Source of the DNA: Catenulispora pinistramenti
Lineage (GTDB): Bacteria > Actinomycetota > Actinomycetes > Streptomycetales > Catenulisporaceae
Direction of reading: 5' to 3'
Assembly (NCBI RefSeq): GCF_018274385.1
Contig: NZ_JAAFYZ010000026.1
Location: forward strand, 1 to 64,000
Length of the DNA stretch: 64,000 nucleotides
Made by a program: the position numbers and the translations under genes. Positions 566-15,310 of this stretch are shown piece after piece (positions within the stretch are counted from its first letter, which is position 1; each line of letters starts with the position of its first letter). A model generated the notes under the pieces. That model was not told the DNA's origin and ran no database searches. It saw only the letters and a list, made by a program, of their open reading frames with translations.

Positions 566-940
566 ACAGGTGCCCAGCCAACGTTCCGTGCCCAGGATCC
601 GGATCCGACGGCGGCAAACTGCCGCTGCTAGATCCGAACCGGATGGCGCAACGTCAAAATCTCCGCATCTTCCTCCCGACCGCTCATCGGAAGCAGACGC
701 AACACAGCAAACGTATTCGACACCGCCATATACGCGAACCGGAACAGCGCAACCAGCCATCATCGCCGGCCTACGCCGACGACGCGCTGGAAACCGCCCA
801 ACCACGCCACTGTGAGGTGACTGACCAAACCCTCCCCCACCTGCACGGACGATGTTCTCGGCACCTACAGGCCTGAAGTGCGTCATCGATCATCTCGCCG
901 AATATCGATTATCCTCGCCCATCATAGGTACACTGCCCTC

Positions 941-1636
941 ATGGGCCAGGTGAACACCAGGCGTGGCTCGACCCGCTCGCTGGAGGTCTACGAGGAGATC
1001 CGCTCGGACATCATGGCCACGCGGATCCCGCCGGGCGCCCGGCTCAAGGCCGGTCCGCTGTGCGAGCGGTTCGGCGTCAGCTTGTCCGTCGTGCGGGAGG
1101 CGCTGACGCGCCTGTCCGAGCAGCGCCTGGTCCGCTCCGAACCTCAGCTCGGTTTCTCCGTCCTGCCGCTGGACCGGGCCGGCCTCGAGGACCTGACCGG
1201 AGTCCGGGTCGAGATCGAGACCCTCGCCCTGCGGTGGGCCATCGGGCGCGCCGACCTGTCCTGGGAGACCTCGGTCGTGGCCGCCCTTCACCGGCTCGGC
1301 CGGACGCCGGTGAGCGAGCCCGGCGACCAGAACGGGATCTCCGAGGCCTGGTCGGATGCCCACTGCGCGTTCCACACCGCACTCGCGTCCGGCTGCGGAA
1401 GCCCCCTGCTGATGGAACTGCGCCGCGGGCCCTACGACTCCGCCGAGATCTACCGGCGGTGGGCCCGGCCGGGGGCGGTGCGGGAAGAACGCGACGTGCA
1501 CAAGGAGCACACCGACATCGCGGACGCGGCGATCGCCCGCGATGCCGGGCTCGCGACCAGCCTGCTGGAAGCCCACATCCGGCAGACCACGAAGACCTTG
1601 CTGACGAGCGATTTGATGAACTCCACACCGGACTAG
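941..1636 (+). CDS. GntR-family (FadR subfamily) transcriptional regulator
   Basis: A 231-aa protein. An N-terminal winged helix (about residues 14-75) carries the typical GntR pattern RIPPGARLKAGPLCERFGVS then VVREALTRLSEQRLV. It is followed by an all-helical FCD-type effector domain with HCAFHTAL and a late EHTDIADAAIARD segment that usually carries metal-binding His residues. The ATG at 941 was chosen because the upstream in-frame extension falls in relic DNA. It is the first of two regulators ahead of the aromatic catabolic operons, and its effector is probably an acidic pathway metabolite. Family assignment is secure; the target is inferred from position. Confidence 0.88.
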   Translation: MGQVNTRRGSTRSLEVYEEIRSDIMATRIPPGARLKAGPLCERFGVSLSVVREALTRLSEQRLVRSEPQLGFSVLPLDRAGLEDLTGVRVEIETLALRWAIGRADLSWETSVVAALHRLGRTPVSEPGDQNGISEAWSDAHCAFHTALASGCGSPLLMELRRGPYDSAEIYRRWARPGAVREERDVHKEHTDIADAAIARDAGLATSLLEAHIRQTTKTLLTSDLMNSTPD

Positions 1637-1734
1637 CCGGCGAGCGTCGCGGGCGCACGGAGCAAGGCATGTGCCGGCGTGCATGGTGGATGGCAGCCTG
1701 TGCCTGCCAGCGGGAGATCGGGAGGAGAGCGGAA

Positions 1735-2790
1735 ATGCTCGATCACGACAGCGCCGTCGCCCCATGGGAGACACCGGAAAGCTACTACGACGGGCCATTG
1801 CGCGCCTACGAGCGCTATCGCACCAAGGACCCCGTCCAGGCATCGAGCCTGTCGGCAGCCCTACTGTCCGCGAGTCGGCTGGTCGTGCGCGACCACGACC
1901 ACCGGTTCGAGGCCACCTGCCGCGCCGTCCAGGCCCGTTCCGCCTCACTGGTGTACCTCACCTACGGCACCGACGTCATCGTGGACCGGGTCCGTCCCGC
2001 CCACCACGACTATCTGGCGATCCTGCTCCCCCTGCACGGCGGGCTCCACCTCCGCCACCAAGGCCGCGAATTCGACGTCCGGGCCGGCGAAACGGCAGGC
2101 GTCACCTGCTCGCGCGACACCATGCACGCGGAGTTCGGCGCTCAGGCGTCGGTCCTCACGCTGCGCGTCGACGTGCACGCGACTGAGCTCGCGCTCGGGA
2201 ACCTGCTCCTGGAACCGCCGCCCACAGACCTCCGCATCCAGGCGGGCCCGGTCACCGGCCCGGCTCGCAGGTCGCTGACGGGGACAGCCGAACTGCTGGC
2301 GGCCAGCTATGACGGGAAGGATCCGGGGTCCCCGCTCCCGCCCGTGGTCATGCGCCGCATAGAGGAGCAGATCCTTTTCACCGTGCTGCTCTCCGTCAAC
2401 CACAACTACCGGGCTGCGCTGCTAGGAGAGGCGGCACGGCCGAATCGGCGCACCGTCCGCGAGGCGATCGACCTGGTCTGGGCCGAAGAGGAAGCCACCT
2501 GGACGATCCCCGAGCTCGCCGGTGCGGTGGGCGTTTCGGTCCGGGCGCTCGAGTTGGGCTTTCGAAAGGAACTGGGCAAGACCCCGCGGGAGTTCGTCCG
2601 GGAGCAGCGGCTGTTGCGCGCCCACGAGGAGTTGCTGCACGCCCATTCCGGCGACGGAACCACCGTCACCGGGGTCGCGGGCCGCTGGGGGTTCTGGCAC
2701 GCCGGCCGGTTCGCGACACGGTACGTCGAGCGGTTCGGTGTCCGTCCCGCCATGACCCTGCGATCCGGGGCCTCCACCGCGGTTCGCTGA
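1735..2790 (+). CDS. AraC-family transcriptional regulator
   Basis: A 351-aa protein. The N-terminal two thirds resemble the AraC-binding-like domain of AraC/XylS regulators (cupin-like, with LPLHGGLHLRHQGREFDVRAGE around residue 100). The C-terminal ~100 residues form the AraC DNA-binding domain: WTIPELAGAVGVSVRALELGFRK as the first helix-turn-helix and a second one ending in RFGVRPAMTLR. GGAGGAG lies ahead of the ATG at 1735. The 3' end overlaps a degenerate copy of the operon promoter motif (2781-2809). Related regulators of this architecture control aromatic catabolism, so it is a prime candidate activator of the twin promoters. Confidence 0.88.
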   Translation: MLDHDSAVAPWETPESYYDGPLRAYERYRTKDPVQASSLSAALLSASRLVVRDHDHRFEATCRAVQARSASLVYLTYGTDVIVDRVRPAHHDYLAILLPLHGGLHLRHQGREFDVRAGETAGVTCSRDTMHAEFGAQASVLTLRVDVHATELALGNLLLEPPPTDLRIQAGPVTGPARRSLTGTAELLAASYDGKDPGSPLPPVVMRRIEEQILFTVLLSVNHNYRAALLGEAARPNRRTVREAIDLVWAEEEATWTIPELAGAVGVSVRALELGFRKELGKTPREFVREQRLLRAHEELLHAHSGDGTTVTGVAGRWGFWHAGRFATRYVERFGVRPAMTLRSGASTAVR

Positions 2791-2816
2791 CGGCACCTCG
2801 CCTTCGGCCGGTCGCC

Positions 2817-2898
2817 GCGGTTCGCCAACTGGCACTCTTGCCTTCGGCCAGCGACTCGGCCGGACATGAAGCGGCTCGTAACGTCTTTTCCCAGGCAC
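2817..2898 (+). promoter_or_regulatory. Twin promoter element, copy 1 (O-demethylase operon)
   Basis: This 82-bp segment ends 29 bp before the ligM-like start codon. It matches the reverse complement of 13654-13736 at about 84%, with one 1-nt gap. Shared blocks include GCGGTTCGC, AACTGGCAC, CTTCGGCCAG, GACTCGG, GAAGCGGCTCGTA and CGTCT. The GGTTCGC-GGCAC-CTTCGGCC part also occurs upstream in degenerate form at 2781-2809, giving a tandem arrangement. It most likely contains promoter plus operator for a regulator common to both catabolic operons. Confidence 0.8.
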
Positions 2899-2927
2899 GG
2901 GCACACGCGGCGTGGAAGGGACGAGAC

Positions 2928-4286
2928 ATGGCTGTCGAAAGCCTCGAGGACAAGATCAACCAGGCCGGCGGGGCGCTCCGGATGCTGCGCAGCGCGCACG
3001 CCGGCGCCCACCCGTTCCCCATCCCACCGCAGTTCACGACGTGGCAGGACGAGCAGAAGTCCTGGCACGAGACCGCTGTGGTGTTCGAGATGCGCCACAT
3101 GACCGACGTCTACTTCGAAGGCCCCGACGTGCGCCGGCTGCTCAGCGACGTGGCAGTCAACAGCTTCGCCGCCTTCGGCCCGATGAAGGCCAAGCAGCTC
3201 GTCGTGGCCAACGACGCAGGCCAGTACGTCGGCGACGCGATCCTGTTCGGGCTCGGCGAGGAGAAGGTCACCCTCGTGGGCGGCCCCGCCGCCGCGAACT
3301 GGGTCTGCTTCCAGGCCGAGCGGGGCGGCTACGACGTCGCGATCACCCGTGACGAAAACGCTCTGGTCACCAAGGGGGAACGCCTCGTCTTCCGCTACCA
3401 GGTACAGGGCCCGCGCGCCCTCGACATCGTCACGGCCGCACACGGTGCTCCGCTTCCACGGATCAAGTTCTTCAACATCGGCGCCTTCGACATCGCCGGA
3501 ACCCCGGTCCACGCGCTCAACCACACCATGGTCGGCATCCCCGGGCAGGAGACGACCGGGCTGGAGATCTTCGGGCCCGTGGAGTCCGGGCCTCGGGTCC
3601 TGGAAGCGCTGCTGGCGGCCGGGGAGCAGTACGGGCTGCGGCAAGGCGGGGCGATCGCGTACTCCACCACGGCGCTGGAGTCAGGATGGCTCGGCCTCGT
3701 GGTGCCCGGCATCTACGCCGGCGGCGCCACCAAGGCATACCGCGAGTGGCTGCCCGCGAAGGGATTCGAGGCCGGCGTCTCCCTCGGCGGAAGCTTCGCC
3801 TCCGACGACATCGACGACTACGTTCCCACGCCCTACGACCTGGGCTACGCGAACATCGTCAAGTTCGACCACGACTTCATCGGCGCGGACGCGCTGCGCC
3901 GGATCAAGGCCGAACCCCATCGTCGCAAGGTCTGGCTGCGGTGGAACCGCGAAGACGTCACCCGGCTCCTCGGGGACACCTTGTACGCGCCCGAACAAGC
4001 GCGGCCCAGGTACCTGGAAATCCCGTACGCCGTCTACGCCACCTACCAATACGACGCGATCATGTACGCCGGCCGGGTGGTCGGCATCTCCAACCGCACC
4101 GGCTACACCGTCAACGTCGGCGCCTGGTCCTCCCTGTGCATGATCGACGAGGAACTGGCCGTCGACGGCACCGAGGTGACCGTGGTCTGGGGCGACCCCC
4201 AGGGCGCCCGCCTGCGTCCCGCCGTCGAATCGCCCCATGCCCTCAGGGAGATCCGGGCCGTCGTGAGCACCCGGCCACTCGTCTAG
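2928..4286 (+). CDS. Tetrahydrofolate-dependent aromatic O-demethylase, LigM/DesA-like (GcvT family)
   Basis: A 452-aa protein of the GcvT/aminomethyltransferase fold. Length and segments match vanillate/3-O-methylgallate demethylase LigM and syringate demethylase DesA: AANWVCFQAERGGYDV, FRYQVQGPRALDI, IKFFNIGAFDIAG, ALESGWLGL, KAYREWLPAKGFEA and IVKFDHDFIGADAL. Such enzymes move the methyl of an aryl methyl ether to tetrahydrofolate, giving a phenol and 5-methyl-THF, in the cytoplasm. The start is the ATG at 2928 because the upstream reading frame overlaps the promoter repeat. Genes for MetF-like and PurU proteins follow in the same operon and would recycle the cofactor. The exact methoxy-aromatic substrate is not deducible. 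Confidence 0.88.
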   Translation: MAVESLEDKINQAGGALRMLRSAHAGAHPFPIPPQFTTWQDEQKSWHETAVVFEMRHMTDVYFEGPDVRRLLSDVAVNSFAAFGPMKAKQLVVANDAGQYVGDAILFGLGEEKVTLVGGPAAANWVCFQAERGGYDVAITRDENALVTKGERLVFRYQVQGPRALDIVTAAHGAPLPRIKFFNIGAFDIAGTPVHALNHTMVGIPGQETTGLEIFGPVESGPRVLEALLAAGEQYGLRQGGAIAYSTTALESGWLGLVVPGIYAGGATKAYREWLPAKGFEAGVSLGGSFASDDIDDYVPTPYDLGYANIVKFDHDFIGADALRRIKAEPHRRKVWLRWNREDVTRLLGDTLYAPEQARPRYLEIPYAVYATYQYDAIMYAGRVVGISNRTGYTVNVGAWSSLCMIDEELAVDGTEVTVVWGDPQGARLRPAVESPHALREIRAVVSTRPLV

Positions 4287-4338
4287 TCGCTGCCCAGCCG
4301 CTGGGCGCTCGCCCGACGATCCGTGAAGGACCACGACC

Positions 4339-5208
4339 ATGTCCCTGACATCATCACAGAACCCGCTCACCGCCGACCGCCTCCTGGCGGACGCGACCAT
4401 CGAGGTCATCCCGCTCAAAGGCGCCGGGGACCAGATCCAGGCCACGCCCGCCGACGCCACGGTGGCCATCACCTGCTCGCCGAAGTTCGGCTTGGACCGC
4501 ACTGTCCAGTTCTGTGCCGTCGCCGCCGGCTCCGGCCGACGGGTGGTGCCGCACCTCGCCGCCCGCATGGTGCCCAGCCGCCGCGCGCTCACCGATTTCG
4601 TCAGCCAGATCCAGGACATCGGCATCACCGACTTGTACGTGATCGGCGGCGATGGCGAGCGGCCAGCCGGCCCTTATAGCGAGGCCGGCCAGGTCCTGCA
4701 GGACCTGCACGAGCACGGCCACACGCTGACGAGGCTGGGCGTCGGCTGCTACCCCGAGGGGCATCCGCTCATCGACGACGACCGGCTGTGGGCGGCCCTG
4801 GAACGCAAGCAACAGCTGGCCACCTACATGGTCAGCCAAATGTGCTTCGACGCCGTGGTCGTCCGTGACTGGCTCGCCCAAGCCCGACAGCGCGGCATCT
4901 CGCTCCCGCTGCGGGCAGGCGTCGCCGGGCCGGTGAAGATCGCCAAGCTGGCCGAGCTGTCGCTCAGGATCGGGGTCGGCCAGTCACTCCGCTACCTGCG
5001 CAAGCAGCACGGCATGGTCGGCAACGTCCTGCGCGGCCGCGCGTACGACCCGAGCCCGTTCGTCTCCGCGATCGCCGGGACGGCCGGAATCGAAGGGCTC
5101 CACGTCTTCAGCTTCAACCAGGTTCCCGAGTACGTCGCCTGGCGGGACGCCCGCCGAGACAGTGGCGACGGCCGCGCCGCGGTAGGTGCCACGCAGGTGC
5201 CGCAGTAG
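4339..5208 (+). CDS. Methylenetetrahydrofolate reductase-like protein (MetF family)
   Basis: A 289-aa TIM-barrel flavoprotein of the MTHFR family. Typical motifs include an N-terminal TCSPKFG (in place of FEFFPPK), VVPHLAARM near residue 75, VIGGDGERP, VGCYPEGHP and a Q-containing MVSQMCFD segment that binds flavin and folate. It lies 52 bp after the O-demethylase gene with GAAGGACC before its ATG. In SYK-6-type lignin pathways a metF partner oxidises 5-methyl-THF formed by LigM back to methylene-THF, and the same role is inferred here. It is diverged enough from housekeeping MetF to look dedicated to this operon. Confidence 0.85.
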   Translation: MSLTSSQNPLTADRLLADATIEVIPLKGAGDQIQATPADATVAITCSPKFGLDRTVQFCAVAAGSGRRVVPHLAARMVPSRRALTDFVSQIQDIGITDLYVIGGDGERPAGPYSEAGQVLQDLHEHGHTLTRLGVGCYPEGHPLIDDDRLWAALERKQQLATYMVSQMCFDAVVVRDWLAQARQRGISLPLRAGVAGPVKIAKLAELSLRIGVGQSLRYLRKQHGMVGNVLRGRAYDPSPFVSAIAGTAGIEGLHVFSFNQVPEYVAWRDARRDSGDGRAAVGATQVPQ

Positions 5209-5224
5209 GTAAGGAGACCAGCTC

Positions 5225-6079
5225 TTGAGCGACGTCATCATCACCCTGTCGTGCCCGGACCAGCCCGGGATCGTCCGCGCCGTCTCCGGATTCGTGGCCG
5301 ATCAGGGCTGCACCATCACCGAGAGCCATCAGTTCATCGACGGTGAGTCTTCGCGCCTGTACATGCGCCTGGCGTTCCAGGCCGTCCACGGCGCCACTCC
5401 CGGTATCGACCCGCTGAGCAGCGACTTCGCCGAGGTGGCGCAAGAGTTCCTGATGACCTGGAAGATCACCGACGCCACCCGGCGCGCCCGCCTGATCATC
5501 ATGGTGAGCAAGTTCGGCCACTGTCTCAACGACCTGCTCTACCGGGTCAAGGTCGGCCAGCTCAACGCCGAGATCGCAGCCGTGGTGTCCAATCATCGCG
5601 ACCTTGAGCAGCTGGCGACGGCCGCGGGCGTGCCGTTCGTGCACGTGCCGGTCACCGCGGCCACCAAGCCCGAAGCCGAGGCGGAACTGCTCCGGCTCGT
5701 GGACGCCCTCGATGTCGACCTGGTCGTCCTGGCCCGCTACATGCAGATCCTCTCGGCCGGCCTGTGCGCCAAGCTCGAGGGACGGGCCATCAACATCCAC
5801 CACTCGATGCTGCCCAGCTTCAAGGGCGCCAAGCCGTACCGGCAGGCCTATCAGCGGGGAGTGAAGCTGGTGGGCGCCACCGCCCACTACGTCACCTCCG
5901 ACCTCGACGAGGGGCCCATCATCGAGCAGGAGGTACAACGCGTCGACCACGCTATGGACGCCGCCGGTGTGACCGCGCTGGGCCGCGACACCGAATCGCT
6001 GGCCCTGGCCCGCGCCGTCCAGTGGCACCTGGAGAACCGGGTCATGCTCGACGGGCGCCGGACGGTCGTTTTCCGATGA
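5225..6079 (+). CDS. purU: Formyltetrahydrofolate deformylase
   Basis: A 284-aa protein. The N-terminal ACT domain begins IITLSCPDQPGIVRAVSGF. The C-terminal formyl-transferase-fold domain has the hydrolase signature INIHHSMLPSFKGAKPY and the later HYVTSDLDEGPII, which together supply the Asn, His and Asp catalytic triad. It hydrolyses 10-formyl-THF to formate and THF. The start is TTG at 5225 after AAGGAGA. It is 16 bp downstream of the metF-like gene. In context it would free THF and dispose of the aryl methyl carbon as formate. The intermediate FolD step is not encoded here and must come from elsewhere. Confidence 0.92.
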   Translation: MSDVIITLSCPDQPGIVRAVSGFVADQGCTITESHQFIDGESSRLYMRLAFQAVHGATPGIDPLSSDFAEVAQEFLMTWKITDATRRARLIIMVSKFGHCLNDLLYRVKVGQLNAEIAAVVSNHRDLEQLATAAGVPFVHVPVTAATKPEAEAELLRLVDALDVDLVVLARYMQILSAGLCAKLEGRAINIHHSMLPSFKGAKPYRQAYQRGVKLVGATAHYVTSDLDEGPIIEQEVQRVDHAMDAAGVTALGRDTESLALARAVQWHLENRVMLDGRRTVVFR

Positions 6080-6151
6080 GGCCGGGGCCGGCTGTGAATC
6101 CGCGGCTGACCGCGTCGGGCGGCGTGTCCCAGACCAGCTCGCAGAACTCGG

Positions 6152-7138
6152 TCACGACGCGCCACCGGTGCCCGTCCACGGGCGCGGCCGCCGATGCTGC
6201 CCCACCCGGGCCTTCGGCACAGCCACCGGCTCAGCGCCGGCGACGATCCGGTTCGACACCGCGCCGATCCCCTCGGCGACCAGCGTCACGACGTCACCCG
6301 GCCGCAACGGCGCGGGGATCTGCCTGCCGGTGTGGGCCCAGTGTTCGAGCAGACAGCCGGCGCCGCAGGTCCCTGAGGCGAGGACATCGCCGGGCAGCAG
6401 CTGGACGCCGCGCGAGGCGAACGCGACCAGTTCCTCGAACGACCACGCCATGTTGGCCGACGTGTCCCCGCCGCCCGGCAGCGGGACGCCGTTGAGCTCC
6501 GCGTGCATCTCCAGTGCCAGCCGGCCGTCGCGACGGTACGGCGCCAGCTCGTCGGCGGTGACGATCCACGGCCCGAGGGTGTTGGCGAAGTCCTTGCCCT
6601 TCACCGGCCCCAGGCCGACCGGCATCACCGGCGCCATCAGGTCGCGTGCCGACCAGTCGTTGAACAGCGTGTATCCGGCGATGTGCCCGGCCGCTTGCTC
6701 GGGACTCAGGTCCCGGCCGGGCTTGCCGATGACGGCGGCGAGTTCGAGTTCGAAGTCCAGCATCCGGCACCCCGGCGGCACCGCGACCGGTTCGTCCGGG
6801 CCGACCACCGCGTTGGTGTTGGAGAAGTAAAACAGCGGCTGGTCGTACCAGGCAGGGCTCGGCGCTTGCGCGCCGAGGAGCTTCAGGCTGCCTTCGAGGT
6901 GTTCTTCGAAGGTGAGGAAGTCCCGCAGCGTCCCGGGTTGTACCGGCGCGAGCAGCCGCACCTGAGACAGCGGGCGCGGCTCGCCCTCGCGGGCCTGTTC
7001 GACGAGCTCCGCGCGCCGCGCCGGCGCGGCGGCCAGCACCTCGAACTGAGAGGTACCCGCGACCAGCGGCTGAATCCGGCCACCCGTGACGACTCCCAGT
7101 CTGACCCCATCGGCGATCTCGATTCGCGCCAGCTTCAT
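6152..7138 (-). CDS. Fumarylacetoacetate hydrolase family protein (FAH fold), last gene of minus operon
   Basis: A 328-aa FAH-superfamily enzyme. Its C-terminal domain shows LDFELELAAVIGKPGRDL (metal-binding E-x-E), TLFNDWSARDLM, KGKDFANTLGPWIVT and LLPGDVLASGTCGAGC. It belongs to the longer FAH-like group seen with ring-cleavage pathways, where it hydrolyses C-C bonds in acyl-pyruvates or ring-fission products. The ATG at 7138 is preceded by GGGGAAGAG; in-frame GTG codons further up are less likely. The gene is 130 bp after the SDR gene and converges on purU with a 72-bp gap. Substrate unknown; this is the second FAH paralogue in the operon. Confidence 0.85.
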   Translation of the reverse strand: MKLARIEIADGVRLGVVTGGRIQPLVAGTSQFEVLAAAPARRAELVEQAREGEPRPLSQVRLLAPVQPGTLRDFLTFEEHLEGSLKLLGAQAPSPAWYDQPLFYFSNTNAVVGPDEPVAVPPGCRMLDFELELAAVIGKPGRDLSPEQAAGHIAGYTLFNDWSARDLMAPVMPVGLGPVKGKDFANTLGPWIVTADELAPYRRDGRLALEMHAELNGVPLPGGGDTSANMAWSFEELVAFASRGVQLLPGDVLASGTCGAGCLLEHWAHTGRQIPAPLRPGDVVTLVAEGIGAVSNRIVAGAEPVAVPKARVGQHRRPRPWTGTGGAS

Positions 7139-7268
7139 GCGCTCTTCCCCTTCGCTGTACTCGACGTCGATCCAGTACCGGAATTCGGAGGCGGCGATGC
7201 CGCCGAGCTGCTCCAGCCGGTGTGCGCGCACCGCGTCCAGTCCGACAGGCCCGCCGCCGGCCGGCGTG

Positions 7269-8000
7269 CTAGAGCAAGTGCGCTCCGGCGTCCACGACGA
7301 GGTTCTCGCCGGTGACGCCTGGACAGGTCAGCAGGAACAGCACCGCCGCGACTATGTCGCCGGGAGCGGGCAGCCGTTTGGCCGGCGTCCGCTGGCGCTG
7401 CGTTTCGAAGAACTCGGCCATGACCGGGTCGGCGTTGTCGATCGCCTCCGTCCCCGCGACCGAGCCGGGCGTGATGGCGTTCACCCGCACCGGAGCGAGC
7501 TCGACCGCGAGCGAGTTGACCAGGCCGATGACTGCGGAGTTGGCCATCGACATCGTCGTGGACCCCGGTGAGGGCCGCCACATGGACAGGCCGCTGAACA
7601 GCACGACGGAGCCGTCCGGGTCGAGCTTGGGCAGTGCGTGCGCGACGGCGTTCGCGTAGCCGACCGTCTTGATGAGCATCATGCGTGCGGCGGCATCCGC
7701 ACGGAAGTCGGCCACGGTGTTCTTGTCGCGTTCGATCGCGGTGATCACCAGATGGTCGACCACGTCGATGCCGGTGAACAAGCGGCGAAGGGCGGCGTCG
7801 TCCGACAGGTCGCAGGCCAGCCCGCGAGCCCGCGGGCCGAGTTCGGCGGCGCGGGCCTCGGCGGCGTGCGCGTCCCGCCCGGTGACCGTCACTCGCGCGC
7901 CTTGTCCTGCCGCGGCGCGGGCCAGTTCGAACCCCAGGCCGCGCGCTCCGCCGATGACGAGGAGGTGTGCGTCTTTCCTGAGCATCGCGTTCATCTTCAT
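7269..8000 (-). CDS. Short-chain dehydrogenase/reductase family protein with atypical active site
   Basis: A 243-aa classical-length SDR. It has an N-terminal nucleotide-binding GGARGLG, the CDLSD acidic loop near residue 64, and ELAPVRVNAITPGSVAGTE after the active-site region. The usual YxxxK is replaced: the aligned segment reads TTMSMANSAVIGL, so Tyr is Met150 and Lys is Asn154. GGAGAGG precedes the ATG at 8000. It lies between the FAD hydroxylase and the last FAH gene. Either it is a non-classical enzyme or binding protein, or it has lost oxidoreductase activity. The family assignment is firm, the activity is not. Confidence 0.85.
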   Translation of the reverse strand: MKMNAMLRKDAHLLVIGGARGLGFELARAAAGQGARVTVTGRDAHAAEARAAELGPRARGLACDLSDDAALRRLFTGIDVVDHLVITAIERDKNTVADFRADAAARMMLIKTVGYANAVAHALPKLDPDGSVVLFSGLSMWRPSPGSTTMSMANSAVIGLVNSLAVELAPVRVNAITPGSVAGTEAIDNADPVMAEFFETQRQRTPAKRLPAPGDIVAAVLFLLTCPGVTGENLVVDAGAHLL

Positions 8001-8015
8001 GCCAGTCCTCTCCTT

Positions 8016-9521
8016 CTATGACGCCGGCACAGCGGACGGCTGCAACGTGGTCTCAAGCGCGGCGACCAGGACGTCCAGTTCGGCTGAGTCGCCGACGGCC
8101 CCGAAGAGGTAGCGATCGGGCCTGATGATCACGGCCGCTGCTCCCAGACTCCTCACCCAGTCGCGTACTTCCCCGGAGAACTCCTGGAGGACCTGCGCGT
8201 CGAGCGACTCCAGCATCGCCTTCGTCCGGTCGGAGGTGCCGGACAGAACCACGGGATCCCCCACCACGGCGAAGCGGTAACCCACGACGTCGTCGAGGAG
8301 TCGGCCGCTCGCGGTTCTCGGCTGGGCGCTCAGCGTCCCGGCGAGTTCGTTCGTGTCGTCCCGGACGCCGGGGCCCAGACGCGGGCGCAACGCCTCCGCC
8401 CGCACCACGGGTGGCTCGTCCGCCGACGCCACCAGCGCCTCGATCTTGTTCGCCCACTCCGCGGCCAGCGTCGTGTACGCGCCCACATGCGGTCTGCGCT
8501 CGGTCTCGTAGGTGTCCAACAGCTCGATCGGCGAGTCGCCCCGAATCACGCGGCCGAGCTTCCAGGCCAGATTGGTGGCGTCCCGGATGCCGGAACACAT
8601 CCCCTGGCCCAGGTGGGGCGGCATGGTGTGGGCGGAGTCCCCGGCCAGGAGGAGCCGGCCGGCGCGCCACGGGGTGGCCGTGAGCGACCGCCACTCGTAG
8701 ACGTCGCAGCGCAGCATCCGGTACTCGTCCGGGCTGAACCACGGCGACAGTACTTCGTAGGCCTTCTCGGTGCGCTCGAAGGCCGCCGAATCGTCGTCAG
8801 GGCGAAGCATCAGCTCGAACCGCAGCCGCGGCGCGGCGATCGGCGCGAACGTCAACGGGTTGCGGATCGCGCCCTGGATGAAGGCATCGCGGCCGGCGAG
8901 CTCGTCCTTGGCGACGAAGGGAATGATGTCGATGATCAGCGAGCGGTGGGTGGCGTTGTGATCGATCTGCGTACTGCCCATGAGCTCGCGCACGCTGGAG
9001 TTGGCGCCGTCACACCCCACCACGAACGACGCCCTGATCTGGCGGTCCTGGGCGGTGGCGATCTCGCGGACGTTCACCAGCACGCTGTCGCCCGCGTCCT
9101 TCAGCGTCGTGACCTCCCAGCCGAAGTACGTGCCGGCGTTGGCGTAGTTGTGGGCGTAGCCGCGCAACACGGCCTCGAAGTCGGGCTGGTGGAACATGTA
9201 GTCCGACTGCCACCCCTGCTCGGTGCGGCCCCGGTGCCAGTCGAATTCCATCACCGTGCGCCACTGGGAGTCGTAGTGGCGGTACATGCCCACCAGCGAG
9301 AAATCCTTCTCGAGGTGCTGAAGGCCGAGTGTCTGGAACGCCCTCATCGTCTCGTCGTCGACGTGTGTCGCGCGCGGACGGGCCATCGGCATGCGGCCGC
9401 GGTCGATGACGGCGACTCGCAGACCTTCCAGCTCAAGGAGGCGCCCGAGCGCCAGACCTGTTGTCCCGCAACCGATCACGGCTACATCGACATCGACATC
9501 GCCGTTGACCCTGCTGTCCAT
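8016..9521 (-). CDS. FAD-dependent aromatic hydroxylase, MhpA-like (class A flavoprotein monooxygenase)
   Basis: A 501-aa protein with the three class A signatures: GCGTTG dinucleotide fold at residues 17-22, the DG motif in VVGCDGANS (171-172), and the GD motif in LLAGDSAHTMPPHLGQGM (294-295). The C-terminal thioredoxin-like domain seen in phenol and 3-hydroxyphenylpropionate hydroxylases is present in shortened form. Such enzymes ortho-hydroxylate a phenolic ring using NAD(P)H and O2. The ATG at 9521 follows GAGGAG at good spacing; a TTG at 9539 overlaps the upstream gene. It likely prepares the dihydroxylated ring for the extradiol dioxygenase encoded in the same operon. Confidence 0.9.
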   Translation of the reverse strand: MDSRVNGDVDVDVAVIGCGTTGLALGRLLELEGLRVAVIDRGRMPMARPRATHVDDETMRAFQTLGLQHLEKDFSLVGMYRHYDSQWRTVMEFDWHRGRTEQGWQSDYMFHQPDFEAVLRGYAHNYANAGTYFGWEVTTLKDAGDSVLVNVREIATAQDRQIRASFVVGCDGANSSVRELMGSTQIDHNATHRSLIIDIIPFVAKDELAGRDAFIQGAIRNPLTFAPIAAPRLRFELMLRPDDDSAAFERTEKAYEVLSPWFSPDEYRMLRCDVYEWRSLTATPWRAGRLLLAGDSAHTMPPHLGQGMCSGIRDATNLAWKLGRVIRGDSPIELLDTYETERRPHVGAYTTLAAEWANKIEALVASADEPPVVRAEALRPRLGPGVRDDTNELAGTLSAQPRTASGRLLDDVVGYRFAVVGDPVVLSGTSDRTKAMLESLDAQVLQEFSGEVRDWVRSLGAAAVIIRPDRYLFGAVGDSAELDVLVAALETTLQPSAVPAS

Positions 9522-9531
9522 ATCAAGCTCC

Positions 9532-9954
9532 TCAATCAAGGCTGATCGTGTCGGCGAACAGGCTGAAGGAGAGTCGGATGGTTCCTTCGTTCAGCTGCCA
9601 CCCGTGCACGGTGTTCGCGCGCAGGCCCGCGCGGTGGAAAGGTTCTGTATCGGAGATGGCCGTCGCGGCTTCCAGGGACGATGCCCTGATGATGGCGGTG
9701 CCGCTGCCGTCCCAGTCTTCGCCGGCGGCATTGGCGCCGGACAGGAACAAGACGCCGTTCTCCTCCTGCTCCTTGAGCCAGAGAATGTGTTCCCTGAGAT
9801 GGGATGCCAGGTACTCCATCGGCGAGTCCACGGGATGCACCATGTCCATGCGCATCATGTACAGCTGCACCTGACGCAGTCTTCGCAGGTGGTCTTCCAG
9901 GCTGAACGAATCCGCTGCGGGATCCGGCAGGTTCTCGTCTCCGGCGGTCGTCAT
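9532..9954 (-). CDS. YciI-like (dimeric alpha/beta barrel) protein
   Basis: A 140-aa protein. Its middle part resembles the YCII/muconolactone-isomerase-like fold: YLASHLREHILWLKEQEENG, then LFLSGAN and a DGSGTAIIRASSLEAATAI strand-helix unit. YciI-type proteins have a conserved His and Asp, and several take part in aromatic or halo-aromatic degradation as isomerases or lactone-handling enzymes. GAGGAG precedes the ATG at 9954, which lies 12 bp after the SMP-30 gene. A role on a ring-cleavage intermediate is inferred from context only. Confidence 0.7.
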   Translation of the reverse strand: MTTAGDENLPDPAADSFSLEDHLRRLRQVQLYMMRMDMVHPVDSPMEYLASHLREHILWLKEQEENGVLFLSGANAAGEDWDGSGTAIIRASSLEAATAISDTEPFHRAGLRANTVHGWQLNEGTIRLSFSLFADTISLD

Positions 9955-9966
9955 TTCCGATGCTCC

Positions 9967-10800
9967 TCAGGGGTTTGCGGCCGGTTCGTATATTTCGACA
10001 TGGGATTTCAGAGTCTTGTTGGCGACGGCCTCCAGGACCGAGCCGCCGCCGGTCTCGGCCACGGTCACGAACAGCCGTCCGTCAGGGCCCAGACAGCACG
10101 CGACCGGTTGGCCCTCTCCTGTGCTGATCTGGCGCAGCGGACCGGATCGGGCGATGAGGACGACCGCATGGGCGGTGAGCGTGCAGACCCAGACGCCGTC
10201 CGCCGCGGCGCAGATCCCGTCGGGTCGCGCTTCGGGATGCACGACCGCGGCGAGGTCGGCGAACAGCCTCCGGTCGGTGAGCTGTCCGTCCGCGGCGATG
10301 GTGAATGCGGTCAGGCGCTGGGCCCAGGTTTCCGCGACGACGAGGGTGGCGCCGTCGTCGATGATGGCCAGCCCGTTCGGGAACTCGAGGTCTTCGGCCG
10401 CCACCGTCGCCCGTCCGTCGGGCGTGACATGGATCAGTCGGCCTGGCCGCGGCTGTTCACCGAGGTGGGCGGCGTACCCGACATCGTCCACGTAGAGAGC
10501 GCCGTGGTGATCACCGACCATGTCTCCCAACGGTCCCGCGGCGACCGCGGACAAGTCCGCATACGCCCCGAAGCCGGTTCCGTCCCAGAGCCCGACTCGC
10601 CTTTCGCGCATGATCGCGCCGACCAAGCGGCCGTCGGGAAGGAACCACAAGCCATTCGACTGCGCGGCCAGCGGCGTGAACGCCCAGGCGCCGCCGCTGT
10701 CGGTCCAGATCCCGCCCTTCTGCGGATCCGAGACCCACAGCGCTCCCTCACTCCATCGCGGGCCTTCGCCCAACGTCATCCCATCGCTGTGTGGCCTCAT
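9967..10800 (-). CDS. SMP-30/gluconolactonase-family hydrolase
   Basis: A 277-aa six-bladed beta-propeller protein of the SMP-30/LRE family. It opens with LGEGPRWSEGALWVSD and carries the metal-site segments FPNGLAIIDDGATLVVAET and ARPDGICAAADGVWVCT. These enzymes are Ca/Zn-dependent lactonases. The ATG at 10800 lies 4 bp after the stop of the dioxygenase gene, so translation is probably coupled. In this operon it may open a lactone formed after ring cleavage. No signal peptide is visible, which fits a cytoplasmic role. Confidence 0.85.
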   Translation of the reverse strand: MRPHSDGMTLGEGPRWSEGALWVSDPQKGGIWTDSGGAWAFTPLAAQSNGLWFLPDGRLVGAIMRERRVGLWDGTGFGAYADLSAVAAGPLGDMVGDHHGALYVDDVGYAAHLGEQPRPGRLIHVTPDGRATVAAEDLEFPNGLAIIDDGATLVVAETWAQRLTAFTIAADGQLTDRRLFADLAAVVHPEARPDGICAAADGVWVCTLTAHAVVLIARSGPLRQISTGEGQPVACCLGPDGRLFVTVAETGGGSVLEAVANKTLKSHVEIYEPAANP

Positions 10801-10804
10801 GGCG

Positions 10805-11734
10805 TCAGCCGGTCGCGCTGTGGGCGCCGGTCATGTGCGCGGCGAGGTCCTCCGGGTTGACGAAGGACGGTGGAGGCGGCGGCCCCCAGCTCAACAGGGC
10901 CTTGTCGTCCTCCCAGACCCCGGGCGACCACAGCGAGTCGTCGATGATGCAGTCGAGGTCGGAGTAGTACTCGGAGAATGTTCCGGCCGGATCCCGGAGA
11001 TACCAGAAGAAGTTGGAGCCGATGAAGTGGCGTCCCAGCCCCCAGGCGTGGCGTTCGGGATGGTCCTGGAGCATCGCCATCGCGCCACGCCCGATCTCGT
11101 CGACGTCCTCGACCTGCCAGGAGGTGTGGTGCAGGTAGTTGACCGGCGCCCGCGTGACCAACACGTTGTGGTGGTCGGTCGAGCATCGCAGGAACGCCGC
11201 CGCGTCACGGACCTCGTCGGACACCTTCAGGCCGAAGCCGTCGGTGAAGAAGTGCCGGGAGGCGGCCTGGTCGGTGGACCCGATCACGACGTGGCCGAGC
11301 CTGCGGGGCCGCACCGCGCCTTCACGCAGGATCCCGGGCGCGCGGGCTTCCGGTCGCCTGACCAGTCCCGGCTGGTTGTAGCCTGCCTCCAGGGCCGGCC
11401 GCTGGATCAGCCGCCGGGTCACCTTGGCGGTGACCTGCACGCCGGTGACCGGCTCGACGGCCGTCACGACTTCGTCGGTCATCTGGGAGACAGCGAAGTC
11501 AAAGCGCCGCAGTCGGCCGGCGATCCGCCCGATGTCGTCGAAGTCGTCGACCCCTATCTCGATCCGCAGCAGCTGCCGGTGCGGCGCCGGCACCAGGCGG
11601 AGCTGCCGGCCGCCGTCGGTCGTCGACAGCCAGCCGTCGTCCTCGCCGGTCAGCCCGAAGTCCTCATAGTAGCCGCGGACAGCCTCGACCTCCGGTACGC
11701 CGACCGTCAGCGAGTTCAGGTTGTGAAGACCCAT
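10805..11734 (-). CDS. Extradiol ring-cleavage dioxygenase (VOC superfamily, type I)
   Basis: A 309-aa two-domain VOC protein like biphenyl-2,3-diol 1,2-dioxygenase. The Fe(II) ligands appear in place: His148 in RRLGHVVIGS, His202/203 in NYLHHTSWQVED and Glu255 in GTFSEYYSDLD. It would cleave a catecholic ring next to the two hydroxyls in the cytoplasm. GAGGAGG precedes the ATG at 11734; an in-frame codon 15 nt upstream is less favoured. It is 15 bp downstream of the first FAH gene. It is the ring-opening step of the operon; the natural catechol is unknown. Confidence 0.9.
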   Translation of the reverse strand: MGLHNLNSLTVGVPEVEAVRGYYEDFGLTGEDDGWLSTTDGGRQLRLVPAPHRQLLRIEIGVDDFDDIGRIAGRLRRFDFAVSQMTDEVVTAVEPVTGVQVTAKVTRRLIQRPALEAGYNQPGLVRRPEARAPGILREGAVRPRRLGHVVIGSTDQAASRHFFTDGFGLKVSDEVRDAAAFLRCSTDHHNVLVTRAPVNYLHHTSWQVEDVDEIGRGAMAMLQDHPERHAWGLGRHFIGSNFFWYLRDPAGTFSEYYSDLDCIIDDSLWSPGVWEDDKALLSWGPPPPPSFVNPEDLAAHMTGAHSATG

Positions 11735-11749
11735 GTGCCGCCTCCTCAT

Positions 11750-12634
11750 TCAGGGCTTTGAGATGGTCCGCGAGACGTGCGGCGGACCTTCGGCGAACGT
11801 GTTGCGAAGGCGGCCGACACCGGAGATCCAGGTCTCCAGGACATCCCCCGGTGCGAGATAGCGCTGCGGCGACCGGGCGTGGCCGACACCGGAAGGCGTG
11901 CCGGTGAACACGATGTCGCCTGGAGTCAGCGGAAGAATCGCCGACAGTCGTTCGATGAGCACGGCGACGGAGAAGATGAGCTGGCTCGTGCGGGCCCGCT
12001 GCACGACCTCGCCGTTGACACTGCAGCCGATCTCCAGGTCCTCGCGGTCGGCCAGCTCATCGGGCGTGACGATCTCCGGCCCGATCGGGGCGAACCCGGG
12101 AAAGGACTTGCCGATGCTGAACTGTGGCGGGGTGCCGACCAGCTGACGGGTCCGCTCGGACAGGTCCTGCCCGACCGTGACGCCCGCGACATGGTCCCAG
12201 GCCCGAACCGCCTGGACGGCGACGGCCCGCCGGCCGATGACGACGACCAACTCCGCCTCCCAGTCCACGGTCGCCGTCGGCAGCTTCACCTCGTCGCCGG
12301 GGCCGGCGAGGCAGGTCGGGAATTTGGTGAACACGGCCGGTTCCGGCGGTGGCGGCAGGCGGCTCTCGCCGACGTGGTCGGCGTAGTTCAACCCGATCGC
12401 GAACACCTGCGAGGGACGCGGCACCGGCGCTTTGAGCCGGCTCGGATCGAAGGGCTCGACCAGTGACCGGGCCTGCGCCGCCCGCAAGCGGTCGGCCCAG
12501 ACCACGAACTCGTCCCAGCGGGCGAACACGGCCTGCGGATCCGCGGCGAACCGGCCATCGCTGGCCTTCTCCACGTCGATGACGCCGTCGGGGTACTTGA
12601 GCACAAGCCGGCCATCAAGATTTGCGATACGCAT
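11750..12634 (-). CDS. Fumarylacetoacetate hydrolase family protein (FAH fold), second gene of minus operon
   Basis: A 294-aa FAH-family protein of the common actinobacterial type: AIGLNYADHVGE, VDWEAELVVVIG (metal-binding acidic residues), TVGQDLSERTRQ, GKSFPGFAPIGPEIVT and GDIVFTGTPSGVG. This group includes acylpyruvate hydrolases and 2-hydroxyhepta-2,4-diene-1,7-dioate isomerases. AGAGGAAG precedes the ATG at 12634. It lies between the PrdB-like and the dioxygenase genes and probably acts on the ring-fission product. It is clearly different in length and motifs from the FAH protein at the operon end. Confidence 0.88.
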   Translation of the reverse strand: MRIANLDGRLVLKYPDGVIDVEKASDGRFAADPQAVFARWDEFVVWADRLRAAQARSLVEPFDPSRLKAPVPRPSQVFAIGLNYADHVGESRLPPPPEPAVFTKFPTCLAGPGDEVKLPTATVDWEAELVVVIGRRAVAVQAVRAWDHVAGVTVGQDLSERTRQLVGTPPQFSIGKSFPGFAPIGPEIVTPDELADREDLEIGCSVNGEVVQRARTSQLIFSVAVLIERLSAILPLTPGDIVFTGTPSGVGHARSPQRYLAPGDVLETWISGVGRLRNTFAEGPPHVSRTISKP

Positions 12635-12673
12635 GCGGCGCACTTCCTCTTCTGTTCGACACGGTGCCGACGC

Positions 12674-13609
12674 TCAGCAGGCACACCGGACGGCGAACTC
12701 CCGCTCATTCCCGCCGCCCAGAACCTGCGTGTGGGCCGCCGCATTCGCCAGGACCGAACCGCGGATCGCGTTGTCGAGGCGGTAGACGTCCGCGACCAGG
12801 TCTTCCCAGTCCCGGCTGCCGTCCGCGTCCCACTGGAACGGCAGCCGCTTCAGCTCCCAGTCCGACTCGGCCTGCTCGGCAAATTCCAGCGCGGCCTTGA
12901 CGATCTCCCGCTGCTGCGTCTTCGCCCGCGGCCGACCGGCCGGACACCCCAGCGGGAAGTCCAGGAACGAGGCACGAGGCGGCTTCAGATAGGTGGCCTG
13001 CTTGTACAAGGTGGTGATGCTGGTGGTCGGGATCCCCCGATTCTCGATCGCCCGGGCCAGAACCCCGAAGGCCACATGGCACTGCGGACAGAACGGCACC
13101 ACCAGTACCAAGTCGACCCCCATGGCCTGGAACTCCTCGACCACCCGGGGAGCCACCTCGGTCGCCAGCTCGTCGAACTGGCTGATCGAGCCGACCATCG
13201 ACACCGCGTTCGCCGCGTACCGCCCGATGACGCCGTCCCGCTCCAGATCGAGCATCGTGTCCCTCGGGTAGGCCACGTTGGGGTCGGCTAGCGCGAAGGC
13301 CCGGATCGGCGTCATGTGCCCGAACAGCACGTCGTCCAGGTCGCGCTCCCTGGGCAGCAGCCGGTAGGAAAGGTCGCTGTGCTGCCGGAGCCGCGGCTGG
13401 TCCGGAAAGTAGGCACCGCAGGACACCAGCAGCCCGACCGTGGCCTCCCGCAACGGGACCCGCATCGGCGTCAGCGCGGGCGGATCGAAGTCGGGCAGCG
13501 GTTCGGGCTCGATGCCCAGCACGTTCCTGAGCAGCTTGTCCGGATCGAACACCGGGAAACCGGGATCCACCGGCGCGGAAGTCGTCTGAATGAGGTCGGT
13601 CACGGTCAT
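12674..13609 (-). CDS. PrdB/GrdB-like reductase component with Cys in place of selenocysteine
   Basis: A 311-aa protein resembling the selenoprotein B subunit of D-proline (PrdB) and glycine/betaine reductases. The matching block runs from ATVGLLVSCGAYF (about 56) through SISQFDELATEVAPRVVEEF to LVVPFCPQCHVAFGVLARAI and GIPTTSI. In PrdB the active-site motif is U-x-x-C; here it is Cys174-x-x-Cys177. The stop is an ordinary codon and no in-frame UGA is read through. It is the first gene of the ring-cleavage operon, 45 bp after the promoter repeat. Stickland reductases are anaerobic, whereas this operon contains O2-using enzymes, so a different substrate is likely. Function unknown. Confidence 0.75.
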   Translation of the reverse strand: MTVTDLIQTTSAPVDPGFPVFDPDKLLRNVLGIEPEPLPDFDPPALTPMRVPLREATVGLLVSCGAYFPDQPRLRQHSDLSYRLLPRERDLDDVLFGHMTPIRAFALADPNVAYPRDTMLDLERDGVIGRYAANAVSMVGSISQFDELATEVAPRVVEEFQAMGVDLVLVVPFCPQCHVAFGVLARAIENRGIPTTSITTLYKQATYLKPPRASFLDFPLGCPAGRPRAKTQQREIVKAALEFAEQAESDWELKRLPFQWDADGSRDWEDLVADVYRLDNAIRGSVLANAAAHTQVLGGGNEREFAVRCAC

Positions 13610-13653
13610 CACCTCAGAAGGAAGCGGCTGAGTACGTTCCGGGAGGGCAGGAG

Positions 13654-13736
13654 GTGCCCGGGAAACAGACGCTACGAGCCGCTTCGCGTCCCACCGAGTC
13701 ACTGGCCGAAGACGGGGGTGCCAGTTAGCGAACCGC
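13654..13736 (-). promoter_or_regulatory. Twin promoter element, copy 2 (ring-cleavage operon)
   Basis: The minus-strand sequence of this 83-bp segment is about 84% identical to the plus-strand copy at 2817-2898, starting at the same GCGGTTCGC and ending at the same GGCAC. It lies 44 bp upstream of the PrdB-like start codon at 13609. Conservation of non-coding sequence at the same distance from two operons supports common control by the GntR or AraC regulator. Confidence 0.8.
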
Positions 13737-13994
13737 AGGCCCTGACCTGTGTCTCGCCCTGCCCTCGGGGGAGGACGAGTGGGCGGGACCGGCAGTCGCT
13801 CCGGGCTCAGGCGGCGGTTGGCCAGGGGCCGTACTCGCAGTGCTCAACGCGGCCGGCCGGCCCCGGAACACGGAACCGGCCATCGGGCTCTACAAGACCG
13901 AGCAACAACCGCCGCTGCGCGGTGGGATCGGCCACGATCACCTTCTCGCGTCGCTCGGCACCTTCCCCGCCCGGGAATGATCGAGCGGTGGCTG

Positions 13995-14117
13995 AAGGCC
14001 GGCGTGGTCGAACAGCACATCACCAGGCGCAGCCAGGCAGTCGTAGAAGTCTGTGCGGAGCCCGGACAACACGCCCAGGGCCTCGACGCGGGCGGCAGGA
14101 ACCTCGAAAACGGTGAC
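13995..14117 (-). pseudogene. N-terminal relic of an IS701-type transposase
   Basis: About 40 minus-strand codons read VFEVPAARVEALGVL then GLRTDFYDCLAAPGDVLFD, which resembles the start of actinobacterial IS701-family transposases. The frame then leaves the family. Below it, from about 13965 to a TGA at 13806, another minus-strand stretch (VIVADPTAQRRLLLGLVEPDG) looks protein-like but I cannot place it. An 8-bp perfect inverted repeat (GTGTGTTC/GAACACAC at 14136-14157) lies just upstream. The whole 13737-14238 gap appears to be decayed mobile DNA. Confidence 0.5.
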
Positions 14118-14238
14118 GGCGGTCTCCTTGTGGGCGTGTGTTCTTGGTCGAACACACAGCATCACCTGGAGACCGCTTCCTCATCAGGGCAGTGAGAAAC
14201 CCCGACACGGGGCGATCATGCCGGGTTGACCGAAAAGC

Positions 14239-14805
14239 TTAAGTCTGGCGCCACTGCTGGTCATTGTTGCCGTTGCAGTCCCACTGGATCGCGGGCGTGC
14301 CTTCGGCGGGATTGTCGCCATCTATTCCGAGGCACTTTTGGTAGTTGGCGTTGTAGTTTTGAATATTGCCGCCATTCGGAAAATGAATCCATCTCCAATT
14401 CTGGTCGGGACCGTTCCAGCAGTCCCACTGGATTATGGCCGCGCCGTTCGCGGTGCTCTCGTTGAGGACTCCAAGGCACTTGTTGGAGTTCTGGTTGACG
14501 AACTCGCAACCACCACTGTTCGGTTGGCAGAACATCTGCCAGGCTTGGTCGGGTTGGCCGTCGCACGGCCACTGGACCGCCTCCGCGCCGTTGGCCTTGC
14601 TCTCGTTGAGGATTCCGAGGCACTCGTTCCAGCCGTTCCTGATCTCATACCCGTAAGGGTTACCGCCGAACGCGGCCAGGTGAGGACTGGACTTGGTCGT
14701 CGCGGAGGCTGGGGAGGTCGTCATAGTCCCAATGCCGAGGGCGAACAGCACGGCCGCGAGGGCGGCCACCAGTCGGTTTGTCTTCTTCAAGGAAAGCCTC
14801 TTCAT
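14239..14805 (-). CDS. Secreted ricin-type beta-trefoil lectin
   Basis: A 188-aa protein. The signal peptide has KKTNR then a hydrophobic ALAAVLFALGIG stretch and a likely cut after SPASA. The mature part is a single beta-trefoil carbohydrate-binding domain with three QxW-type repeats (DQAWQ, DQNWR, DQQWR) and repeated KCLGVLNES/KCLGIDGD elements. There is no catalytic domain. It is probably exported by Sec as a stand-alone sugar-binding protein. It sits alone between two transposase relics and its GC content is locally lower than the neighbours, which is consistent with recent acquisition. Confidence 0.9.
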   Translation of the reverse strand: MKRLSLKKTNRLVAALAAVLFALGIGTMTTSPASATTKSSPHLAAFGGNPYGYEIRNGWNECLGILNESKANGAEAVQWPCDGQPDQAWQMFCQPNSGGCEFVNQNSNKCLGVLNESTANGAAIIQWDCWNGPDQNWRWIHFPNGGNIQNYNANYQKCLGIDGDNPAEGTPAIQWDCNGNNDQQWRQT

Positions 14806-15010: not shown

Positions 15011-15261
15011 CCTGGTAGGTCAACGGTCCGTGCTGAAAGCGGCATTGAGACTGGTGTCGGCGTATTCGTTGCAGTGCAGAGCGAAGTACGGCTGAACGTG
15101 CAAAGTGAGGGCCGCATCGCACTGGTGCGCTGACTGCATGAGCTTCGGCTCGAAGACACCAGCATTCGAGCACGGCCAACGATCTCCCGGCATGAAATGA
15201 CACGATGCGGCAGAGTCCGGGAACGGTCCGGGAGCAAGTGGGGGCCTTCTGCCTGCCCACT

Positions 15262-15310
15262 CCCGGTTCGCTGGGAGAAAAACGGGAGAAACGGATTGGA
15301 TCCTGGTCCG
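15262..15310. repeat. 49-bp direct repeat, copy 2, with doubled GGGAGAAA
   Basis: This block matches 250-298 at 46 of 49 positions in the same orientation, including both GGGAGAAA units. It lies just beyond the C-terminal end of the decayed transposase at 15370-15965, as copy 1 does for its own transposase relic. The two copies bracket 15 kb that holds the complete catabolic island. Confidence 0.7.

Follow-up and report, generated by a model that had tools for sequence, protein, structure and literature searches.

Two facing operons in a predicted aromatic catabolic cluster of Catenulispora pinistramenti carry the same composite promoter element, and the two copies, P1 and P2, are very probably activator-dependent promoters of the class II type through which a neighboring AraC-family protein switches both operons together. 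We analyzed the first 64,000 nucleotides of contig NZ_JAAFYZ010000026.1 (assembly GCF_018274385.1), hereafter the window. On its plus strand, genes for a GntR/FCD-family regulator (gntR) and an AraC-family regulator (araC) are followed by P1 and a ligM-like/metF/purU operon; on its minus strand, P2 precedes an operon headed by a grdB-like gene (Table 1). The plus-strand genes appear to specify an aromatic demethylation route with recycling of C1-folate, and the facing operon a ring hydroxylation and cleavage route.

Two operons of the window share a promoter element

A sequence-only reading of the window had proposed that an inverted ~82-bp segment, about 84% identical with one gap, precedes both operons, and pairwise alignment bore this out. 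By blastn, positions 2817-2898 (plus) and 13654-13736 (minus) are 84.3% identical over 83 columns with one gap. Local alignment of 2814-2898 (plus) with 13653-13736 (minus) scored 100, against a mean of 17 and a maximum of 27 for 500 pairs of dinucleotide shuffles, and the best score of P1 against tiles of the remaining window was 35. The pair is the longest inverted repeat within the first 20 kb, and P2 is the sole second copy of P1 in the 11.46-Mb genome at E ≤ 0.001. The proposed distances to the first start codons were also correct, being 29 bp from position 2898 to the ATG at 2928 and 44 bp from position 13654 to the ATG at 13609. A partial third copy said to overlap the araC stop codon proved genuine as well. 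Lying at ~2776-2810, it scored 41 against the P1 copy (maximum of 28 in 2000 shuffles), and its TTCG motifs are 20 bp apart versus 22 bp in every intact copy.

The element precedes pathway operons in four genomes

A scan of 84,980 species yielded three close loci, in Catenulispora pinisilvae (L005), Streptomyces NRRL F-5126 (L006) and Kribbella ALI-6-A (L007). In blastn searches with the element, matches were found before ligM and grdB in C. pinisilvae and Streptomyces, plus before a second grdB copy. Counted as complete composite sites, there are 2 in the window's genome and 3 in each of the other three, and all of them precede operons of this pathway, rearranged or split ones included. In Streptomyces, metF-purU-araC lies ahead of ligM, and in Kribbella all of the genes are on one strand. 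The second grdB copy, on another C. pinisilvae contig (L012, contig C361, 978-3646), has its own element and an mhpA-like gene that we did not find in this species' main cluster; the operon therefore appears to have been split, with its promoter carried along. Operons orthologous to those of the window but lacking the element would have counted against the proposal; when we looked, the element was present.

Each site consists of two half-sites of the forms TTCG-N6-GRC and TTCG-N6-GNCTCGG, followed by a TANNNT hexamer. The TTCG-to-TTCG period is 22 bp in all 11 sites, the direct-repeat arrangement of AraC/XylS class II operators. Counted from the start of the second TTCG, CTCGG ends at 17 bp and TANNNT begins at 36 bp, which places the hexamer 19 bp past CTCGG in every site. 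Half-site 2 occupies the place of a −35 element at a fixed distance from a putative −10 recognized by its conservation, as is typical of class II promoters. In comparisons across genera, identity is 77-80% in the half-sites and −10 and 36-38% in the two stretches that separate them; among the Catenulispora copies those variable stretches are 61-74% similar. Thus, the ~82-bp similarity stands, but the full 82 bp does not hold up as a functional unit, since conservation between genera is limited to the half-sites and the −10. The functional element appears to be shorter, and the extra likeness of the two window copies would reflect recent copying. From the −10 to the start codon the distance varies from 37 to 124 nt. 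No good sigma-70 promoter was found within 600-3000.

We also trained a matrix on the five Catenulispora sites only and scanned it over the Streptomyces and Kribbella loci, so that each genus was left out of the training. The Streptomyces promoters of ligM, grdB and metF scored 39.6, 41.8 and 28.8. Three Kribbella operon promoters scored 49.0, 35.4 and 27.0, the top-ranked promoters being those of ligM, of YCII-metF-purU and of an operon encoding histidinol-dehydrogenase-like, short-chain dehydrogenase (SDR), MhpA, SGL and AraC proteins. All other positions in these loci scored 7.8 or less, bar a fourth, weaker Kribbella site (16.5) before an MFS transporter gene. The extra sites located in this way had not entered the original observation.

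The composite pattern TTCGYNNANNGRC-N9-TTCGSYNNRYGNCTCGG-N19-TANNNT gave 11 exact matches in ~48 Mb (five genomes), all upstream of cluster operons, as arises by construction from a pattern written from the cluster sites; the reversed pattern gave 0 matches in the same genomes. At 3 mismatches there was no site beyond P1 and P2 in the window's genome, and at 2 mismatches there was no further match in 391 phylum genomes. The half-site pair TTCGSYNANNGNC-N9-TTCGSYC matched 3 times in C. pinisilvae and 0 times in 8 Catenulispora genomes without the cluster. A site that is shared by several operons of one pathway, kept across genera and absent where the pathway is absent is what a regulon would display.

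Allowing 3 mismatches added a single off-cluster match in Streptomyces, ~120 bp ahead of a paralogous metF. This metF belongs to a second tetrahydrofolate-type demethylation cluster (L039, 6775-14019), which also has two ligM paralogues, purU and an AraC homologue (33%). On plasmid pR1CP1 of Rhodococcus opacus 1CP, a degenerate but exactly spaced site, TTCGCCTATTGAC-N9-TTCGCC...TACGTT (L019, 10863), precedes the metF of a metF-ligM-purU-folP operon, and the plasmid also encodes an intact AraC homologue at another place. Another Streptomyces locus (G033; LigM 54%) carries no such site and was dropped.

The adjacent AraC protein is the likely regulator

The sequence-only reading had named "GntR or AraC" as a single regulator of demethylation and ring cleavage. 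Shared control is strongly supported by the comparative genomics, and the choice of regulator can be narrowed to AraC because araC adjoins ligM and the site, because gntR was not found in two loci that bear the site, because the geometry is of the AraC/XylS kind and because a different stretch is conserved upstream of gntR. The araC product, with its C-terminal double-HTH domain, belongs to the AraC/XylS family (HTH_18, 66 bits against a cutoff of 33.6; AraC_binding_2, 67 bits against 27), and its gene adjoins ligM and the site in 4 of 4 genomes (by tblastn in the three relatives). Across four relatives its DNA-binding domain is 95, 81, 67 and 62% identical and its sensor domain 86, 77, 43 and 33%; the gap is widest in Kribbella (67% versus 43%) and Rhodococcus (62% versus 33%). 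Such a difference would follow if the operator stayed constant and the ligand could change. Adjacent AraC, and not GntR, is thus the likely reader of the site, and activation is more likely than repression because there is no good −35.

A GntR/FCD protein binding both elements as a repressor, alone or together with AraC, seems unlikely to us. The gene does sit just upstream of araC and is 89% conserved in C. pinisilvae, but it was not found by tblastn in the Streptomyces or the Kribbella locus, both of which retain the same element with the same spacing, so that it is not conserved along with operon and site as the regulator gene of a GntR/FCD-controlled operon would be. GntR/FCD proteins usually bind a short palindrome, unlike the direct repeat seen here, and the conserved stretch AATATCGATTAT upstream of gntR is a better candidate for the protein's own site. 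We considered GntR as the regulator and rejected it. In both Catenulispora species the region corresponding to 875-930, upstream of gntR, contains a conserved CGATCAT...GAATATCGATTAT, a candidate GntR site.

We give still less credence to the idea that the two copies merely record that a promoter fragment was recently duplicated and share no regulation. Duplication did occur, as the likeness of the Catenulispora copies in their variable stretches and an araC relic at the C. pinisilvae grdB promoter (see below) attest. Across genera, however, nothing but the half-sites and −10 is retained, with constant spacing, and extra copies stand before differently arranged Streptomyces and Kribbella operons, which points to selection and not to descent alone. 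That the element works in RNA, as a leader, riboswitch or attenuator, is the least credible of the alternatives, although its placement a short way ahead of the start codons would fit. The putative −10 lies downstream of the conserved core, the stretch from this hexamer to the start codon varies in length, and there was no Rfam match in 600-14300; we rejected the idea on these grounds.

We therefore return to an AraC-dependent class II promoter. An aromatic substrate or product would bind the AraC sensor domain, and an AraC dimer would then fill the two half-sites, which are spaced by 22 bp (some two helical turns), the nearer of them overlapping a poor −35 with the fixed −10 hexamer downstream. 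RNA polymerase would be recruited by class II activation, and the O-demethylation/C1-folate operon and the ring-hydroxylation/cleavage operon would be switched on together. The sites, their constant geometry, their placement before pathway operons in four genomes and the link to araC were computed. Several points weigh against this reading. The full system was found in just four genomes, and a pattern derived from the cluster sites is not tested by recovering them; independent evidence comes only from the leave-one-genus-out scan, the paralogous metF match and the lack of the pattern elsewhere. We infer AraC binding, activation and an aromatic inducer from the sequence, and the transcription start and −10 were placed solely by conservation. 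Two different proteins are also conceivable, because the half-sites have no more than TTCG and parts of box two in common.

Proposed origin of the operator

The araC stop codon falls inside the first half-site in both Streptomyces and Kribbella (TTCGC-TGA and TTCGC-TAA). The intact site of the window lies 38 bp after the partial third copy, and a similarly decayed copy occurs at the araC stop of C. pinisilvae. Given these positions and the 20-bp spacing of its TTCG motifs, the most plausible reading of the third copy is the original operator that decayed following a tandem duplication. Just upstream of the C. pinisilvae grdB site we found a match to the last ~55 bp of the araC coding sequence (score of 57; shuffle maximum of 29). 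This relic indicates that, in that species, the ring-cleavage promoter derives from the araC-ligM junction and was copied together with part of araC; no araC relic was detectable at P2 of the window, in L012 or in Streptomyces. The site would thus have arisen across the araC stop codon, at the araC-ligM junction, and later been copied to the ring-cleavage operon.

Genes and surroundings of the cluster

Table 1. Features of the catabolic cluster (positions in the window)
Feature	Positions	Strand	Remarks
GntR/FCD-family regulator gntR	941-1636	+	Pfam; by tblastn only in two Catenulispora clusters
AraC-family regulator araC (AraC_binding_2 + HTH_18)	1735-2790	+	Pfam; proposed activator of P1 and P2
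Decayed third copy at araC stop	2776-2810	+	TTCG at 2783 and 2803; includes araC TGA 2788-2790
Promoter P1, ligM-like/metF/purU operon	2821-2884	+	half-site 1 TTCGCCAACTGGC 2821-2833; half-site 2 TTCGGCCAGCGACTCGG 2843-2859; putative −10 TAACGT 2879-2884
GcvT-fold tetrahydrofolate-dependent O-demethylase, LigM/DesA kind (ligM-like)	2928-4286	+	below both equivalog cutoffs
MetF-like methylene-tetrahydrofolate reductase	4339-5208	+	
PurU, formyltetrahydrofolate deformylase	5225-6079	+	above TIGR00655 cutoff
Fumarylacetoacetate-hydrolase (FAH) family protein, second	6152-7138	-	
Short-chain dehydrogenase (SDR)	7269-8000	-	
MhpA-type FAD aromatic hydroxylase	8016-9539	-	above NF004829 cutoff
YCII-domain protein	9532-9954	-	
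SMP-30/gluconolactonase-like protein	9967-10800	-	
VOC-fold (extradiol-type) ring-cleavage dioxygenase candidate	10805-11749	-	
FAH family protein	11750-12643	-	
PrdB/GrdB-like protein, ring-cleavage operon gene 1	12674-13609	-	below cutoffs
Promoter P2, ring-cleavage operon	13669-13732	-	half-site 1 TTCGCTAACTGGC 13732-13720; half-site 2 TTCGGCCAGTGACTCGG 13710-13694; putative −10 TAGCGT 13674-13669

The demethylase scored 429.5 bits against the LigM cutoff of 580 and 454 against the DesA cutoff of 800 (NCBIfam equivalogs). By these curated criteria, the predicted protein is neither LigM (vanillate/3-O-methylgallate O-demethylase) nor DesA (syringate O-demethylase); it falls in the same superfamily, and we therefore leave its substrate unnamed. 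The GrdB-like protein has a CPQC motif and is 90-93% conserved in C. pinisilvae and Streptomyces. Its relatives are subunits of anaerobic D-proline and glycine reductases, yet its gene heads an aerobic-looking operon.

Hardly any new GrdB-like, LigM or AraC orthologues came from searches of genomes of the order (392), class (395) and phylum (396), and 38 genomes of the genus Kribbella likewise gave almost none, so the cluster is rare and patchy. In the window it is flanked by two 78-bp stretches, 221-298 and 15234-15310, that are 90% identical, each inside an open reading frame (ORF) resembling a truncated transposase or integrase fragment. Together with the patchy distribution, these repeats suggest that the cluster was gained horizontally. 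Three 60-bp repeats with 144-bp spacing (14281-14628) lie within ORF 14239-14805 (minus), whose product is probably secreted, with a ricin-type lectin fold.

Discussion

The element appears to represent a known kind of regulation, an AraC-type class II promoter; the literature searched contained no paper describing this system. XylS/Pm and CphR/PcphA2A1 of Rhodococcus YH-5B are AraC-family class II systems of aromatic catabolism with box A-N6-box B direct repeats (PMC5481539, PMC6205950). The site resembles theirs in its repeated box-N6-box half-sites, which extend from about −70 to −32 with the nearer one at or overlapping the −35. It differs in its boxes, TTCG/GRC(TCGG) here and TGCA/GGNTA there, in its 22-bp period, in being shared by several operons of one pathway and, in Streptomyces and Kribbella, in an operator that spans the stop codon of the regulator gene. 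DesR of Sphingobium SYK-6 is a MarR-type repressor acting on inverted repeats, with similar sites before ligM and desB (PMC6888825). There, as proposed here, one regulator serves O-demethylase and ring-cleavage genes, but the present system would use an AraC-type protein and direct repeats, in actinomycetes, with a different set of ring-cleavage genes. The combination of a GcvT-fold demethylase with MetF and PurU (and FolD in Kribbella), which would carry the methyl group to formate, is like the C1-folate sets of LigM and DesA, the difference being the sub-cutoff scores of the window's demethylase.

Chances seem evenly balanced that these proteins make up a new actinobacterial family of AraC-type regulators of tetrahydrofolate-dependent O-demethylation, whose operator was born across the end of the regulator gene and spread by copying of the araC 3' end with the promoter, with traces at the paralogous Streptomyces metF and pR1CP1 metF promoters. 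For the O-demethylation of aromatics in actinomycetes, the analysis offers a concrete predicted operator together with its predicted regulator; DesR, the studied case that we found, acts as a repressor in a proteobacterium. The specificity of the pattern suffices to look for more members of the pathway in genomes: it led to the paralogous demethylation cluster of Streptomyces and a likely site at a Kribbella transporter gene. The araC relic before the second operon would still show how an operon came under the control of a regulator already in place. Removal of methyl groups from plant-type aromatics followed by ring opening may thus provide a small, clean case of a well-known type of regulation.

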